Shown here: piece by piece, positions 3,902-41,801 of the stretch
Numbering within the stretch: the stretch's first letter is position 1
Layout of the letters: each line of letters begins with the position of its first letter
Origin: Oxalobacteraceae bacterium
Lineage (GTDB): Bacteria > Pseudomonadota > Gammaproteobacteria > Burkholderiales > Burkholderiaceae_D
Assembly: GCA_900299005.1 (NCBI GenBank)
Contig: OMID01000067.1
Coordinates: forward strand, 1 to 64,000
DNA: 64,000 nucleotides
Direction: 5' to 3'
Notes under the pieces: model-generated
Told to the model about the DNA's origin: nothing
The model's input: the letters and a program-made list of their open reading frames with translations, nothing else
The model's database searches: none
Translations under genes and position numbers: made by a program

Positions 3902-6900
3902 ATGCTCAACGGGTTGATTCGCGAGGCGCTGTCCCAGCGCCTGATTATGGTGATGATCGCGCTAGCGCTGGTCGGGTTCGGTTTGCGCGCGACGACCAAG
4001 CTCTCTGTCGATGCTTTTCCTGACGTCACCAACGTTCAAGTGCAGATAGCCACCGAGGCACCAGGACGCTCTCCAGAAGAAGTCGAGCGCTTTGTCACGG
4101 TACCGCTGGAGATCTCGATGACAGGCCTGCCAGGGCTGACCGAGATGCGCTCTCTCAATCGTAGCGCTTTGTCGATCATCACACTGGTCTTCACGGATCA
4201 GACCGATGTTTATTTTGCCCGTCAGCTAGTGATGGAGCGTCTGATGGAAGTTCGCTCCCGACTGCCCGAGGGCATTACGCCAGTGCTGGGTCCGGTATCC
4301 ACGGGTCTGGGCGAGGTCTATCAATACACGATCGAACATCCGGACGACGGCAAACGGGCGCTCTCCGAGGCAGAACTGATGGAGCGCCGCTCCGTGCAGG
4401 ACTGGGTGGTGCGACCGATGCTGCGCTCAATCACAGGCGTTGCAGAGATCAATTCATTTGGTGGTTTTGAGCGCCAGTATCAGGTGCTGGTGAACCCGGA
4501 CAGGCTGCGTCACTACCAGTTGTCCATGGAGGAGGTACGAACTGCCATCTCCGCGAACAACGCCAATTCCGGTGGCGGCATTTTGCCGCAAGGCGCTGAG
4601 CAGTATTTAATTCGCGGCGTCGGACTCACGCGCACGCTCGAAGATATTGGCGGCATCATCCTAAAAGAAGAGCGTGGCATCCCCGTGTACGTACGGGACG
4701 TCGCGCAAGTGAAAATCGGCTCGGCGGTCCGTCAGGGTGCGCTGGTCAAAAATGGCACGACCGAAGCGACCGGCGGCATCGTCATGATGCTTCGCGGTGG
4801 TAATGCCAAAGAAATTGTCACCCGTATCAAGCAGCGCGTCCACGAGATCAATGCTAAAGGCATGCTTCCGGGTGGTCTGCAGATCGTACCGTTCTACGAC
4901 CGCACGGAACTCGTGGATGCCTCCCTGTGGATGGTTGGCAAGGTACTCATCGAAGGCGTCATTCTGGTCGTGATTGTCTTGTTCATCTTCTTGGGTGACT
5001 TGCGCTCGAGTCTGGTGGTCATTGCCACACTGATTATCACGCCGCTGGTGACCTTCATGGTCATGAATCGGATTGGATTGTCAGCCAACCTCATGTCGCT
5101 CGGGGGGCTTGCGATAGCCATCGGCCTGATGGTCGACGGCACCGTGGTGGTGGTGGAAAACGTCTTCCACAAGCTCGGGTATGCAAAGCCTGAGGAGAGA
5201 AGCAAAGTCGTGCTTGAGGCAACGCTGGATGTAGCCAAGCCCACCATCTATGGCATTTCCATCATCATTCTGGTCTTCCTGCCGCTGATGACCCTGACCG
5301 GCATGGAGGGCAAGATGTTCTCACCGCTGGCGCTGACCATCGCCATTGCGCTGGCAGTATCACTCGCAGTGTCCTTGCTGCTTTCACCTGCGTTGTGCTC
5401 CTACATTTTGAGAGGGGGCGCCGACCATGACACTCGGCCAATTGCTTTAATGAAGTTTTACTACATGAAGCTGCTGGGCATGGCGATGGCATCGCAAAAG
5501 CGCACCGTGTTTCTAGCGGTACTGCTCTTGCTCGGTTCTTTCATGATCGTTCCCTTTCTGGGAAAAAGCTTCATCCCGATCATGAAGGAGGGGTCCATCA
5601 CGCCAACCATCGTTCGCATGCCCAGTATTTCCATTGATGAGGCCGCGAGGATCGATCTGGAAGCCATGAAACGCATCAGCCAGATACCCGGCGTGCGAAT
5701 GGCTGTCTCCAAGCTGGGTCGGGGCGAGTCGCCGGCGGATCCCTCCGGACCCAATGAATCTGATCCGGTCGTATCGATTGATCCGGCGGTGGAGCGATCC
5801 CAGACCGAAATCGAAGATGACATCCGTCATGCCCTGGCAGACATGCCGGGCGTTCAGATCGTGATGAATCAGCCGATCGCGCAACGTGTCGACGAGATGC
5901 TGACCGGTGTTCGCTCCCAGCTGGCGATCAAGATCTTCGGTGATGATCTCGCCGAACTCAAGCGCCTTGCCGAGCAGGTCGCCTTGATCGTCAAGCAGGT
6001 GCCCGGTGCCCGAGACATACGAGTTGACCGATTATCCGGGCAACAAACACTGACCATAGACATCGATCGTCGAGCAATCGCGCGTTACGGTATCAACGTA
6101 GCGGACATCCACAGCATTATCGAAACAGCGATTGGCGGAAGCGAAGTCAGTCAGCTTTACGAGGGCGAGCGTCGCTACGCGATCCTGCTACGCTATCCTG
6201 AAAATTATCGTAATTCGGTTGACGTCATTCGCGAGACCATGTTGCGAACGGCAGATCATGCGCTCATTCCCCTGGAAAGCGTCGCCAAGATCTCGCTGGT
6301 GGACAGCCCGCCCATGGTCAATCGCGAGACAGGAAAGCGACGCGTGGTGGTCGGCGCCAACGTGACTGGTCGTGATCTTGGTGGTTTCGTGGCCGAAGTG
6401 CAGCAGCGGGTTGATGAAAAAGTGAAGCTGCCTGAGGGTTATTATTTTTCGTGGGGCGGTCAGTTCGAAAACATGCAGCGCGCGATGAGCACACTGATGG
6501 TTATCGTGCCGCTGACGGTCGTCGCGATCTACTTCCTGCTGTTCCTGATGTTCAATTCAGTCAGACTGGCCGGATTGATCATCACCGTGCTGCCATTCGC
6601 ATCCATAGGCGGCGTGTTCGGGCTGGCGATTACGGGCGAATATTTGTCTGTGCCGGCATCCGTGGGCTTCATTGCACTGTGGGGTATTGCCGTGCTTAAT
6701 GGTGTCGTGCTGATCACCTACGTCAGGCGGCTGCGCGAGGAAGGGGTGGCGCTTGATGTGGCGCTGCTGGAGGGCTGCAAGCAGCGATTCAGGCCCGTGA
6801 TGATGACAGCGACAGTGGCCTTGCTGGGGCTGGTACCGTTTTTGTTTGCTTCCGGTCCCGGTTCTGAGGTTCAGCGTCCTCTGGCCGTCGTGGTCATCGG

Positions 6901-38150: not shown

Positions 38151-38495
38151 CTAGCGCTTGCCCACAGACTGCGCGCCAACTGGCTTGGGTTTGCCCTGCG
38201 CGTCCGACAATCGGTATTTTGTCCTCCGGTCTCCCATCAGATCCCGCAAATCGCGAATGCTGATCTGTGTCACTTCATGCATGCGTATTAATAACGATGC
38301 GCCGACGGGCAGGGTGCGATGACGAATTTTGCTGATGACGGGCGGGGCTACTTCCAGGGCACGAGATAGGGCGGCATCGTTTTTGAGTTGCATACGTTCG
38401 CGTAACGTATCCAGCAGCAGATTTGGATCGTAGCTGGGCTGCGATGAGAGGGCATGCTGTGGCTGGCCTGCAGAGTGACGTTGCTGATGTTCCAT
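38151..38495 (-). CDS. Small Cro/CI-like helix-turn-helix protein
   Basis: LLLDTLRERMQLKNDAALSRALEVAPPVISKIRHRTLPVGASLLIRMHEVTQISIRDLRDLMGD; start at ATG complement 38495 with RBS gaggaaa. Confidence 0.75.
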   Translation of the reverse strand: MEHQQRHSAGQPQHALSSQPSYDPNLLLDTLRERMQLKNDAALSRALEVAPPVISKIRHRTLPVGASLLIRMHEVTQISIRDLRDLMGDRRTKYRLSDAQGKPKPVGAQSVGKR

Positions 38496-38584
38496 GGTTT
38501 TCCTCGCACATGAATTTGCCAGAACCGGCATGAACTGCCGGCTTGCATAAACGACATGACCACGCCAACAGGCAACAAGTTCCG

Positions 38585-38671: not shown

Positions 38672-40546
38672 TCACCATAGCCCCGTACCGTAAGTGCGCG
38701 GCCCCATCATCTGACGGAACGATGCATAGGGATCCATGCTGCCCAAGCCTCCCATGCCTCCGAAGGCCCCGAATGATTGCGGCATCATCCTTGGGGGTTC
38801 CCGATACAAGGTGCTCAGCACTTGCAGGACTTGCGGTGAGAGCGCCTGATTGCCGAGGACAGATCCGAGCGATGTGCTGGCCATTGGTGATGGGTGCGCG
38901 GGGGCGAGTCCCACCGCTCTGAGCACATCGGGCAAGCCGAACCCTGTGCGACGTGGGTCGCCCACCATCACGGGCCGACAGGACATTTTGATGATGTGAA
39001 ACAGCCGCTCGACCCGCTCGGCTGTGCGAGGGCTGGTGCCTTGGAAATCCGGATGATGGGCAAGGACCAGGGCTGCAAGACCCGTCACGTGGGGTGCCGC
39101 CATGGAAGTTCCATCCCAGGCCGCAAAGTTATTGTCGGGGACTGAAGAGGTGATCGCTACGCCCGGCGCACAAACATCGACCTCCGGTCCGAAGCAACTA
39201 AAGCGTGCCGAGAAAAATCCGTTCGAATCAATTTGCGGCGTAATGGTCTGGACGTGGTAGCTGTCTGAGGGGAATTCATTCAATTTGCCGATGGCTGCCA
39301 CCGCGAGTACCTGTGATGACGATGCCGGGTACTGCACTGGGCCACCCGAATTCCCGGCGGCGACGATACAAGCGACCCCAGCCTGCTTTGCGCGCAAGAT
39401 CTGCTGTTCCAGTGCCTCGGAGGGTTCTACACCACCCAGACTGAGATTAACGACGTCAACCTGCTTCTCGATGCAGTATTCAAGTGCATCAATGAGTTGA
39501 CTGATCTGGCCACCGGGGAAGAGTTTGCACGAATGAACCTCAGCCTCGGGTGCGAAGCCGCGTATGCCCCAGGAAGAATCGAGTCCGGAGATAATGCCCG
39601 CGCAATGAGAGCCATGGGAAATCGTGTCGATGTTCCAGCCACTGCTTTGCGTTTTGTTGAGTACATCATAGCCACGCGTGATTTTTGATAAATCCTGATG
39701 ACTATTGGCAGCGCCGGAATCGACGATGGCAATACGTATGCCCTGACCTCGATAATGGGACGGAATCTGATCCAGCCGCATTGCTTTCTGACCCCAAGTC
39801 AGTTGCTGCTGAGTAGGAAAGTTAGCGAGTGTGGGCCATGCAGACAGCGCTTGCAGACCGATAACATTCATCTCGGCGTTGCTGATGTCAGGTTGTTCCA
39901 CGCAGAAGCTCCAGTAGTCAGCACGGGGCTTGATATAGAGCTTGCGAAGGCTTTGCGCTGTCTCTCCGTAGAGCGTGAGCTTGACGCGGCCGCTGGCATC
40001 GGTCACGTCCATTGCCGGTAATAGCGAACCGAACAGATACACTTCGGCATCTTTGACGGGCATATTGTTTGCGCCGAGCACAAGGAATTCTGCGGTAAAC
40101 GCCGAACCGGACACCGGAAGATTGCAATTGACGAGGGAGGTCTGCGGATAATTCACCTCCAGCAGTTGCAAGGGCAGATCGCGCTCTACAATCAACTGGC
40201 CCTGCGACTGCAGCGACAAGGCGCTCGCCTTCTCATCACTCATGCGTGCCACCAGCACGGTGGCGCCATCCGGCACGCCTGCGGCCAGTGCGCCAACACC
40301 TGACCGCGGACCGACCTTGTCGATGATGTCAATATCCGGACTGTCGCGCAATGCCTGCTCGACTGCAGAGAACTGTAATGGCGAGAGTCCCATCATCTGC
40401 ATACCGGGTGAGCGGCGAGGTGCGATGACGAACTGTCCCTTGCGTGATTTGACCGATCGCCGCTTACCCTCTTGCGCAGTGGTGCTGGTGTCCGGTGCGC
40501 GGTCAGTCTGCGAGCCCGATGCTGCGGGCTCTGATTTCGGTGCCAT
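38672..40546 (-). CDS. S8 (subtilisin-like) serine peptidase, no evident signal peptide
   Basis: Catalytic triad segments IVDSGAANSHQDL, HGSHCAGIISG, WDGTSMAAPHVTGLAAL; start at ATG complement 40546 preceded by aaagga. Confidence 0.93.
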   Translation of the reverse strand: MAPKSEPAASGSQTDRAPDTSTTAQEGKRRSVKSRKGQFVIAPRRSPGMQMMGLSPLQFSAVEQALRDSPDIDIIDKVGPRSGVGALAAGVPDGATVLVARMSDEKASALSLQSQGQLIVERDLPLQLLEVNYPQTSLVNCNLPVSGSAFTAEFLVLGANNMPVKDAEVYLFGSLLPAMDVTDASGRVKLTLYGETAQSLRKLYIKPRADYWSFCVEQPDISNAEMNVIGLQALSAWPTLANFPTQQQLTWGQKAMRLDQIPSHYRGQGIRIAIVDSGAANSHQDLSKITRGYDVLNKTQSSGWNIDTISHGSHCAGIISGLDSSWGIRGFAPEAEVHSCKLFPGGQISQLIDALEYCIEKQVDVVNLSLGGVEPSEALEQQILRAKQAGVACIVAAGNSGGPVQYPASSSQVLAVAAIGKLNEFPSDSYHVQTITPQIDSNGFFSARFSCFGPEVDVCAPGVAITSSVPDNNFAAWDGTSMAAPHVTGLAALVLAHHPDFQGTSPRTAERVERLFHIIKMSCRPVMVGDPRRTGFGLPDVLRAVGLAPAHPSPMASTSLGSVLGNQALSPQVLQVLSTLYREPPRMMPQSFGAFGGMGGLGSMDPYASFRQMMGPRTYGTGLW

Positions 40547-40599
40547 GTTGATCCTTTCTGCGAAATGAATCACCAGTTACGCTGGCGTCGCTTGTGCTG

Positions 40600-40860
40600 T
40601 CACATGCCAAACATGGAAAGCGGTTGATCCGGTTCGATTTTCAGTCCACCGGAGTGCGTAAAGCGCTCTTGCAACTCCGCTGCCTTTGCATGCGCCATCT
40701 CATACACGGCCGTGTGTGGGGTATCGATGGGGCCCAGCGTGTCAATCAACTGCAAGCCGGGATCCTGATGGCTGGACTGAATGAATTGACTCAGTTTGCC
40801 GGGGTCGTTGCAGCTGATGAGGTACCGTCCCGAGTCAGGTCCGCCTTCGAATGCGTGCAT
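40600..40860 (-). CDS. 86-aa protein resembling a free-standing subtilase prodomain/I9-like inhibitor
   Basis: GRYLISCNDPGKLSQFIQSSHQDPGLQLIDTLGPIDTPHTAVYEMAHAKAAELQERF..GLKIEPDQPLSMF aligns by eye with GQFVIAP..LSPLQFSAVEQALRDSPDIDIIDKVGP..ATVLVARMSDEKASALSLQSQGQLIVERDLPLQLL of the adjacent subtilase. Confidence 0.65.
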   Translation of the reverse strand: MHAFEGGPDSGRYLISCNDPGKLSQFIQSSHQDPGLQLIDTLGPIDTPHTAVYEMAHAKAAELQERFTHSGGLKIEPDQPLSMFGM

Positions 40861-40928: not shown

Positions 40929-41801
40929 TCAGTGCAGCGTCTGCTGGCCGCCTGAATATCCCTGCTGACCACTCGCCTGATATCCTTGCTGTTGCTGCTG
41001 GGCGAGCTGCTGGAGCATCGCCTGCTGCAGCGGATCTGCCTGGAAGGGCAGCAGTCGACCCCACTGTCCTGCGCTGCCGCCGATTAAGCTGCCCATGCCC
41101 GACTGGCCAAAGAGGCCACCAATGGCACTACCGAGTGGCTGACCGATCTGTCCGAGCAGATTGCCGAAGAAGCCCTGGGGTGCCAGCCCTTGCGTCTGCT
41201 GTTGCTGCTGTTGCTGCTGTTGCTGCAGTTGCTGGGCATAGGCCTGTTGCAGCTGCTGAATCGGATCTATCGTGTAGGGCAACAGCTTTCCTGCGGGTCC
41301 AGCGATGTTGGCCATGACATGGCCGATGCCCGTGTATCCCGGCATGCTGCTGATGAGTGGCTGGCCAATCTGGCCGAGCAGATTGCCGTACAGGCTCTGG
41401 GGCGCGAGCTGCTGTGCATACGCCTGCTGCGCGTACGCCAACTGCACAGGATCGATCTGGAAAGGGAGAAGCCTCCCGAGCTGCCCCAAGGCACTACCTA
41501 TCGAGCCGCCTGATCCCGACTGGCCAAACATGCCGCCAATGGCGCTGCCCAGTGGCTGGCCGATCTGGCCGAGCAGATTGCCGAAGAATCCCTGCGGTGC
41601 GAGCTGCTGCATGGGCTGTTGCTGAAGTTGCTGTGCACAAGCTTGCTGCAGCCACTGGATGGGGTCTGCCTGAAAGGGCAGGAGGCCGCCAATGCCCTTG
41701 CCGATCAGACCACCCAGCGGTACTCCAGTCATGCCGCCAAATAGTCCTTGCGGCACCAATGCTTGCCCACCATAGCCGCCCCACTGCTGAATACCATTCA
41801 T
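40929..41801 (-). CDS. Gln/Gly-rich four-repeat protein with polyQ tract
   Basis: ATG complement 41801 with RBS aggag; four units of [L/V]xPQGxFGxxxGxxGxPLGxxIG...LLPFQxDP; ORF track starts upstream at 41927. Confidence 0.85.
   Translation of the reverse strand: MNGIQQWGGYGGQALVPQGLFGGMTGVPLGGLIGKGIGGLLPFQADPIQWLQQACAQQLQQQPMQQLAPQGFFGNLLGQIGQPLGSAIGGMFGQSGSGGSIGSALGQLGRLLPFQIDPVQLAYAQQAYAQQLAPQSLYGNLLGQIGQPLISSMPGYTGIGHVMANIAGPAGKLLPYTIDPIQQLQQAYAQQLQQQQQQQQQQTQGLAPQGFFGNLLGQIGQPLGSAIGGLFGQSGMGSLIGGSAGQWGRLLPFQADPLQQAMLQQLAQQQQQGYQASGQQGYSGGQQTLH

Follow-up and report, generated by a model that had tools for sequence, protein, structure and literature searches.

A free-standing homologue of the N-terminal domain of the adjoining subtilase in Oxalobacteraceae, with features of a propeptide-like inhibitor

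Introduction

What does a free-standing protein of 86 residues do beside a subtilase gene, and where does it come from? The question is raised by an open reading frame in the window, the 64,000-nucleotide stretch of Oxalobacteraceae DNA analysed here, the product of which (D1) had been described in the original prediction as I9-like, as a free copy of the prodomain-like N-terminal region of the neighbouring subtilase and, by inference, as a paralogous inhibitor/chaperone. In known subtilisin propeptides a four-stranded sheet rests against two helices on the protease surface, these helices are capped by a Glu-x-Asp pair (Glu69/Asp71 in BPN') and the C-terminal tail fills the active-site groove (PMC6993865). 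Fungi, plants and apicomplexans are known to have stand-alone mimics of such propeptides, which have been discussed as convergent (PMC6993865). The importance of the tail is illustrated by POIA1 and YIB2, between which the exchange of six C-terminal residues alters inhibition (PMC10580911).

Results

A conserved gene between a repeat protein gene and a subtilase gene

D1 is encoded at positions 40600 to 40860 on the minus strand, in a reading frame that starts with ATG, is conserved across a family and gives an AF2 model. Differences between close relatives lie mostly at third codon positions (9, 7 and 43 at positions 1, 2 and 3 between the window and genome G019), and D1 is therefore coding; it is a genuine, conserved gene. 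The stop codon of a gene for a Gly/Gln-rich repeat protein of 290 residues (40929 to 41801, minus strand) precedes it by 68 bp, and the likely ATG of the subtilase gene follows after 53 bp, on the same strand throughout. Genes for lactate permease and dehydrogenase neighbour this cassette in the window.

The subtilase, an S8 serine protease (38672 to 40573, minus strand), has 633 residues when read from GTG 40573 and probably 624 residues from ATG 40546. The latter start (after AGAAAGGA) is preferred because orthologues begin with MA[TS]KSES. PF00082 matched residues 276 to 514 with an E-value of 2.7e-40, locating the catalytic domain at 39032 to 39748 (minus strand), and the catalytic Asp, His, Asn and Ser are kept in 52 of 52 full-length relatives; profile and catalytic residues together identify the partner gene as a member of Peptidase S8. 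The N-terminal domain of the protease, D2, occupies 40160 to 40441 (minus strand) and ends in VERD-LPLQLL. Between D2 and the protease domain, at 39950 to 40102 (minus strand), lies an Ig-like or carboxypeptidase-regulatory-like domain, recognised by a sub-threshold Big_1 match (E 0.027 in the window and 6.5e-4 in a Massilia relative). Inspection of the subtilase by eye revealed no visible signal peptide.

D1 and the N-terminal domain of the adjoining subtilase are homologous

For the pair in the window, BLASTP aligned D1 with the subtilase N-terminus at an E-value of 2e-4, and the Smith-Waterman score of 49 was equalled by only 1 of 5000 shuffles. Comparison of profiles built from close relatives (15 D1 and 14 D2 sequences) gave P 8.4e-9, and hhalign of the family profiles, with 56 D1 and 53 D2 members, gave P 1.5e-13 at a probability of 98%. 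AF2 with the family alignments predicted the same b-a-b-b-a-b topology for both domains, with a mean pLDDT of 78 for D1 (strands at residues 10-17, 37-42, 50-56 and 73-77, helices at 20-31 and 57-70) and of 79 for D2. I9 propeptides are described with this topology as well (PMC6993865). Similar profiles and equal topology are what paralogous domains are expected to show and, judged from these comparisons, D1 is homologous to the N-terminal domain of its neighbour, with a likeness beyond chance. The description of D1 as a free-standing copy of that domain, with its elements in matching order, was thus borne out, and the structure prediction that had been proposed as a check agreed with it. D1 and D2 split cleanly in a tree that is based on few columns and has long branches. 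The D2 model contains an extra loop between strands 2 and 3, and D1 carries at its beta2-beta3 turn an invariant PHT segment that has no counterpart in D2.

D1 resembles I9 propeptides without a significant sequence match

The relation to Inhibitor_I9 was less straightforward. At an E-value cut-off of 10, PF05922 matched none of the 56 D1 or 53 D2 sequences in a Pfam search. In hhalign against an alignment of 12 I9 members, D1 reached a probability of 7.6%, in an alignment that is colinear across the whole domain and not significant, and D2 reached 0.4%. Single-pair comparison of D1 with the BPN' propeptide or POIA1 stayed at chance level. In Foldseek searches of the PDB the top matches of both D1 and D2 were generic ferredoxin-like folds (AsnC-type, S6), and no I9 structure was among the best 50 matches listed for D1. 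Direct I9 membership of D1 was rejected on the Pfam, profile and single-sequence tests. The profile comparison suggested in the original prediction thus returned no significant similarity, and its designation of D1 as I9-like holds for the topology, the Glu-x-Asp pair and the length of the C-terminal tail, and fails at the level of sequence and of the generic Foldseek matches. As known stand-alone I9 proteins are likewise devoid of significant sequence similarity (PMC6993865), the failed match is weak evidence against the function. We conclude that D1 resembles an I9 propeptide in several separate features, of which the ferredoxin-like b-a-b-b-a-b fold is seen in the AF2 model by topology alone, with membership not established.

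Two further candidates were discarded in the course of these searches. The N-domains of divergent subtilases from the same family (loci L124 and L126) and from another order (L132) were considered as a bridge to I9; they match D1 (P 4.9e-7) and not I9, and a phylum-wide search with a three-row profile of these N-domains, a weak query that shows little, found nothing. A PDB match of D1 to Pumilio homolog 1 (E 4.4e-4) disappeared with a deeper alignment and is attributed to chance.

An invariant Glu-x-Asp pair is followed by a conserved tail of six residues

Glu76-Pro77-Asp78 of D1 (40627 to 40635, minus strand) lies where the last strand ends, at the position equivalent to Glu69/Asp71 of BPN' (PMC6993865), and its Glu and Asp are invariant in 56 of 56 aligned members. 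By analogy, we propose that these two residues cap protease helices. The six residues that follow (D+1 to D+6, QPLSMF, 40609 to 40626, minus strand) are a candidate P6-P1 plug, as judged from column conservation and the spacing between Asp and the end. Their family consensus is RPLSLF; of the 56 members, 54 have Leu at D+3 and 55 have Phe at D+6. With a mean column entropy of 0.64 bits, compared to 1.70 bits for residues 12-72, the tail is better conserved than any other stretch outside the core, despite the low model confidence at the C-terminal end. The BPN' prosegment (HVAHAY) and POIA1 (GIVTTQ) both stop at D+6, the distance at which the D1 tail would reach P1; many D1 members continue for 3-11 residues past the proposed P1, and in those proteins the chain does not end with the tail. 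Subtilisin subsites accommodate Leu at P4 and Phe at P1. In D2, the Glu-x-Asp pair and Leu at D+3 are invariant in 53 of 53 members, and D+6 is mostly Leu, Met or His.

D1 is part of a three-gene cassette

D1 was present in 15 genomes of the first sample, which included 24 of the genus; among 395 genomes of the family, about 93 gave a D1 match with a strong E-value. A scan of genome_contigs returned 54 D1 loci, some of which belong to the same genomes as the first sample; nearly all are from Oxalobacteraceae (Massilia, Duganella, Rugamonas, Noviherbaspirillum and freshwater lineages). The subtilase is the next gene after D1 in 54 of these 54 loci, with a broken protease gene in three (L040, L063, L072), and the repeat protein gene lies directly upstream in 53; in L048 a frame scan recovered the same gene end. 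D1 thus forms the middle of a cassette of repeat protein, D1 and subtilase, beyond which the neighbouring genes vary between lineages. A search of PLSDB found no D1 on its plasmids, and spread by plasmids was rejected. A role in anti-phage defence was also set aside: the PADLOC matches were to generic subtilase and partial IetS models, with lactate permease and dehydrogenase encoded alongside.

Of the 76 genomes with D2 in the sampled family, 70 possess D1 as well. The six genomes without a full D1 comprise real absences in G003, G004 and G012, two cases at contig edges (G001, where the protease is at the edge and the end of D1 is still visible, and G018) and the diverged G434. The three true absences retain the repeat gene and an in-frame protease, with catalytic residues present in the two genes that are whole. 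In the diverged cassette of G434 (L173), an 80-residue reading frame (5519-5896, minus strand) occupies the place of D1 between the repeat protein gene and a diverged subtilase; its location and pattern are plausible, and for lack of a significant profile match it is taken as no more than a lead. The reverse situation is found in G013 (L028, 2429-2698), where an intact D1 remains at the same genomic site, flanked by lactate permease and a small HTH-like gene, and the repeat gene and protease are gone. This D1 has accumulated 26 nonsynonymous and 19 synonymous changes, below the expectation for neutral drift, in a split that includes the time before the loss. In G463, D1 and the protease have been merged by a deletion, which leaves the start of the former joined to the end of the latter.

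In two Noviherbaspirillum species (L054 and L060) the D1 stop codon is missing, and D1, D2, the Ig-like domain and S8 form a single frame of 801 and 784 residues. Fusion of neighbouring genes is a classic sign of two proteins acting together. The fusion looks derived, since the genes are separate in congeners. Its junction retains an in-frame ATG with a purine-rich leader, from which separate D1 and protease products would be possible.

The repeat protein and neighbouring subtilase modules

The repeat protein has no family in Pfam, NCBIfam, PHROGs or PADLOC. It ends in QQTLH in the window, and a C-terminus of hydrophobic residue and His (mostly TLH, TIH, TMH or TVH) is found in essentially all lineages, including the diverged G434, which ends in VTVH. 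Its repeats contain xLPF motifs (LLPF, MLPF, ILPF) that resemble the LIPY/F inhibitory motif of intracellular subtilisins (PMC6220982). From its sequence, the repeat protein is a possible substrate or decoy of the protease. A gene for a 126-residue HTH-like protein with a weak CI-repressor match (E 0.15), located at 38151-38531 (minus strand) of the window, trails the cassette throughout the genus, even where the protease was lost. Elsewhere, loci L124, L126 and L132/L174 encode subtilases with N-domain, Ig-like domain and S8 domain that adjoin low-complexity or charged small proteins and have no D1 gene, hinting at a broader set of subtilase modules with repeat-protein partners.

The motif around the catalytic serine, GTSMA[AT]PH, is intact in all 53 D1-bearing proteases in which it could be aligned, and reads GTSMAASH in the D1-less proteases of G003 (L119) and G012 (L121), which keep Asp, His, Asn and Ser. 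The altered Pro is Pro225 in subtilisin. Changes at that residue alter subtilisin activity, as in subtiligase. That an altered protease could dispense with a D1 brake is only suggestive, because the change in the two genomes is probably one evolutionary event.

Discussion

We propose, with a probability of about 0.6, that D1 acts in trans as a propeptide-like inhibitor of the adjoining subtilase and shares ancestry with its prodomain-like D2. We infer by analogy that D1 would bind and inhibit the protease in the following manner. Folded as b-a-b-b-a-b, D1 would dock onto the catalytic domain, Glu76 and Asp78 would cap the two surface helices at their ends, and the tail would block the active site by occupying the S6-S1 groove, its Leu placed at P4 and its Phe at P1. 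Since the protease has no visible signal peptide, the complex would be placed in the cytoplasm, where a partner from the same operon would hold the protease silent until D1 is removed. The Phe at D+6 of D1, set against mostly Leu, Met or His in D2, leads us to read D1 as a dedicated plug in trans, whereas D2 would be the prodomain-like region that belongs to the protease itself. In favour of the proposal are the homology and equal predicted topology of D1 and D2, the constant place of D1 next to the protease gene, the close co-occurrence of the two, their fusion in two species, and the invariant Glu-x-Asp pair with its conserved tail and the spacing shared with BPN' and POIA1. The inhibitor/chaperone role named in the original prediction is thus a reasonable mechanism, of which the inhibitor half has good indirect support. 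Counted against the inhibitor reading are the missing sequence link to I9, fold matches that are not I9-specific and the residues beyond P1 in many members, as well as the D1 of G013 that persists without a protease and the three species with a protease and no D1.

Alternatively, D1 may be a split-off folding chaperone, a second prodomain that the protease needs in trans for folding and for which inhibition is incidental. The homology to the cis N-domain, the order of D1 and protease with a short gap up to the likely ATG and the fusion in two species would all fit, and I9 prodomains commonly serve both jobs (PMC10580911). We nevertheless consider it unlikely: the cis N-domain could already fill such a role, a pure chaperone has no need of an invariant P1/P4 tail, and an in-frame protease, with its catalytic residues where the gene is whole, is kept in G003, G004 and G012.

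The same three species, which retain repeat gene and protease without D1, speak against D1 as an assembly or docking domain that ties the protease to the repeat protein as substrate or scaffold, with no plugging of the active site. The repeat gene is in the cassette at practically all loci and the PHT turn, absent from the cis domain, is specific to D1, in keeping with such a role; it would leave unexplained both the invariant Glu-x-Asp pair with its six-residue tail and the homology to the protease's own N-terminal domain, and we regard it as improbable. Finally, D1 could be a generic small ferredoxin-like protein that resembles D2 through a common fold and plays no part in protease control, as the AsnC-type and S6 Foldseek matches and the retention of D1 in G013 might suggest. 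The D1/D2 profile match with colinear motifs, the adjacency to the subtilase at every locus scanned and the D1-protease fusions make this a very remote explanation.

As a trans-acting inhibitor, D1 would have a close parallel in Plasmodium SUB1-ProM, a stand-alone propeptide-like protein that adjoins subtilase genes, shares the b-a-b-b-a-b fold, a capping pair (Glu-x-Asn/Asp) and a C-terminal tail aimed at the active site, the role that we propose for D1, and has no detectable sequence similarity to known propeptides (PMC6993865). SUB1-ProM is, however, eukaryotic, equipped with a signal peptide and confined to Plasmodium (PMC6993865), whereas D1 comes from bacteria, shows no visible signal peptide and has clear homology to a domain of the protease beside it. 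The stand-alone inhibitors of MEROPS I9 (Pleurotus POIA1, yeast proteinase B inhibitor YIB2/PBI2 and Arabidopsis SPI-1) are, like D1, small free-standing mimics of subtilisin propeptides, and POIA1 ends in IEED-GIVTTQ, with Glu-x-Asp and six residues as in D1; its sequence similarity to D1 is not significant, and these inhibitors are eukaryotic and not known as paralogues of any domain in an operon partner. The PF05922 propeptides of secreted bacterial subtilases have topology, Glu-x-Asp pair and six-residue tail to P1 in common with D1, but are fused directly before the catalytic domain of an exported zymogen, whereas D1 is encoded separately and does not match PF05922, and D2 is parted from its catalytic domain by the Ig-like domain. 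Intracellular subtilisins (ISPs) with their LIPY/F propeptide present the same need as proposed here, inactivation of a cytoplasmic subtilase (PMC6220982); they use an extension of 16-20 residues and no folded domain (PMC6220982), and a LIPY/F-like motif (xLPF) occurs here in the neighbouring repeat protein. In the open-access literature, which is limited evidence, we found no bacterial or Oxalobacteraceae operon version of a stand-alone propeptide-like inhibitor.

More tentatively, the cassette may be an operon that controls a cytoplasmic subtilase by a separately encoded copy of its prodomain, with the repeat protein perhaps as substrate or decoy: a self-contained protease-inhibitor-target module of Oxalobacteraceae, with the prodomain as a dissociable subunit. 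A free copy with visible homology to part of the neighbouring protease, together with a natural fusion of the two, makes the origin of an inhibitor by prodomain duplication directly testable, in an uncharacterised three-gene protease module that is widespread in Massilia, Duganella, Rugamonas, Noviherbaspirillum and freshwater Oxalobacteraceae.
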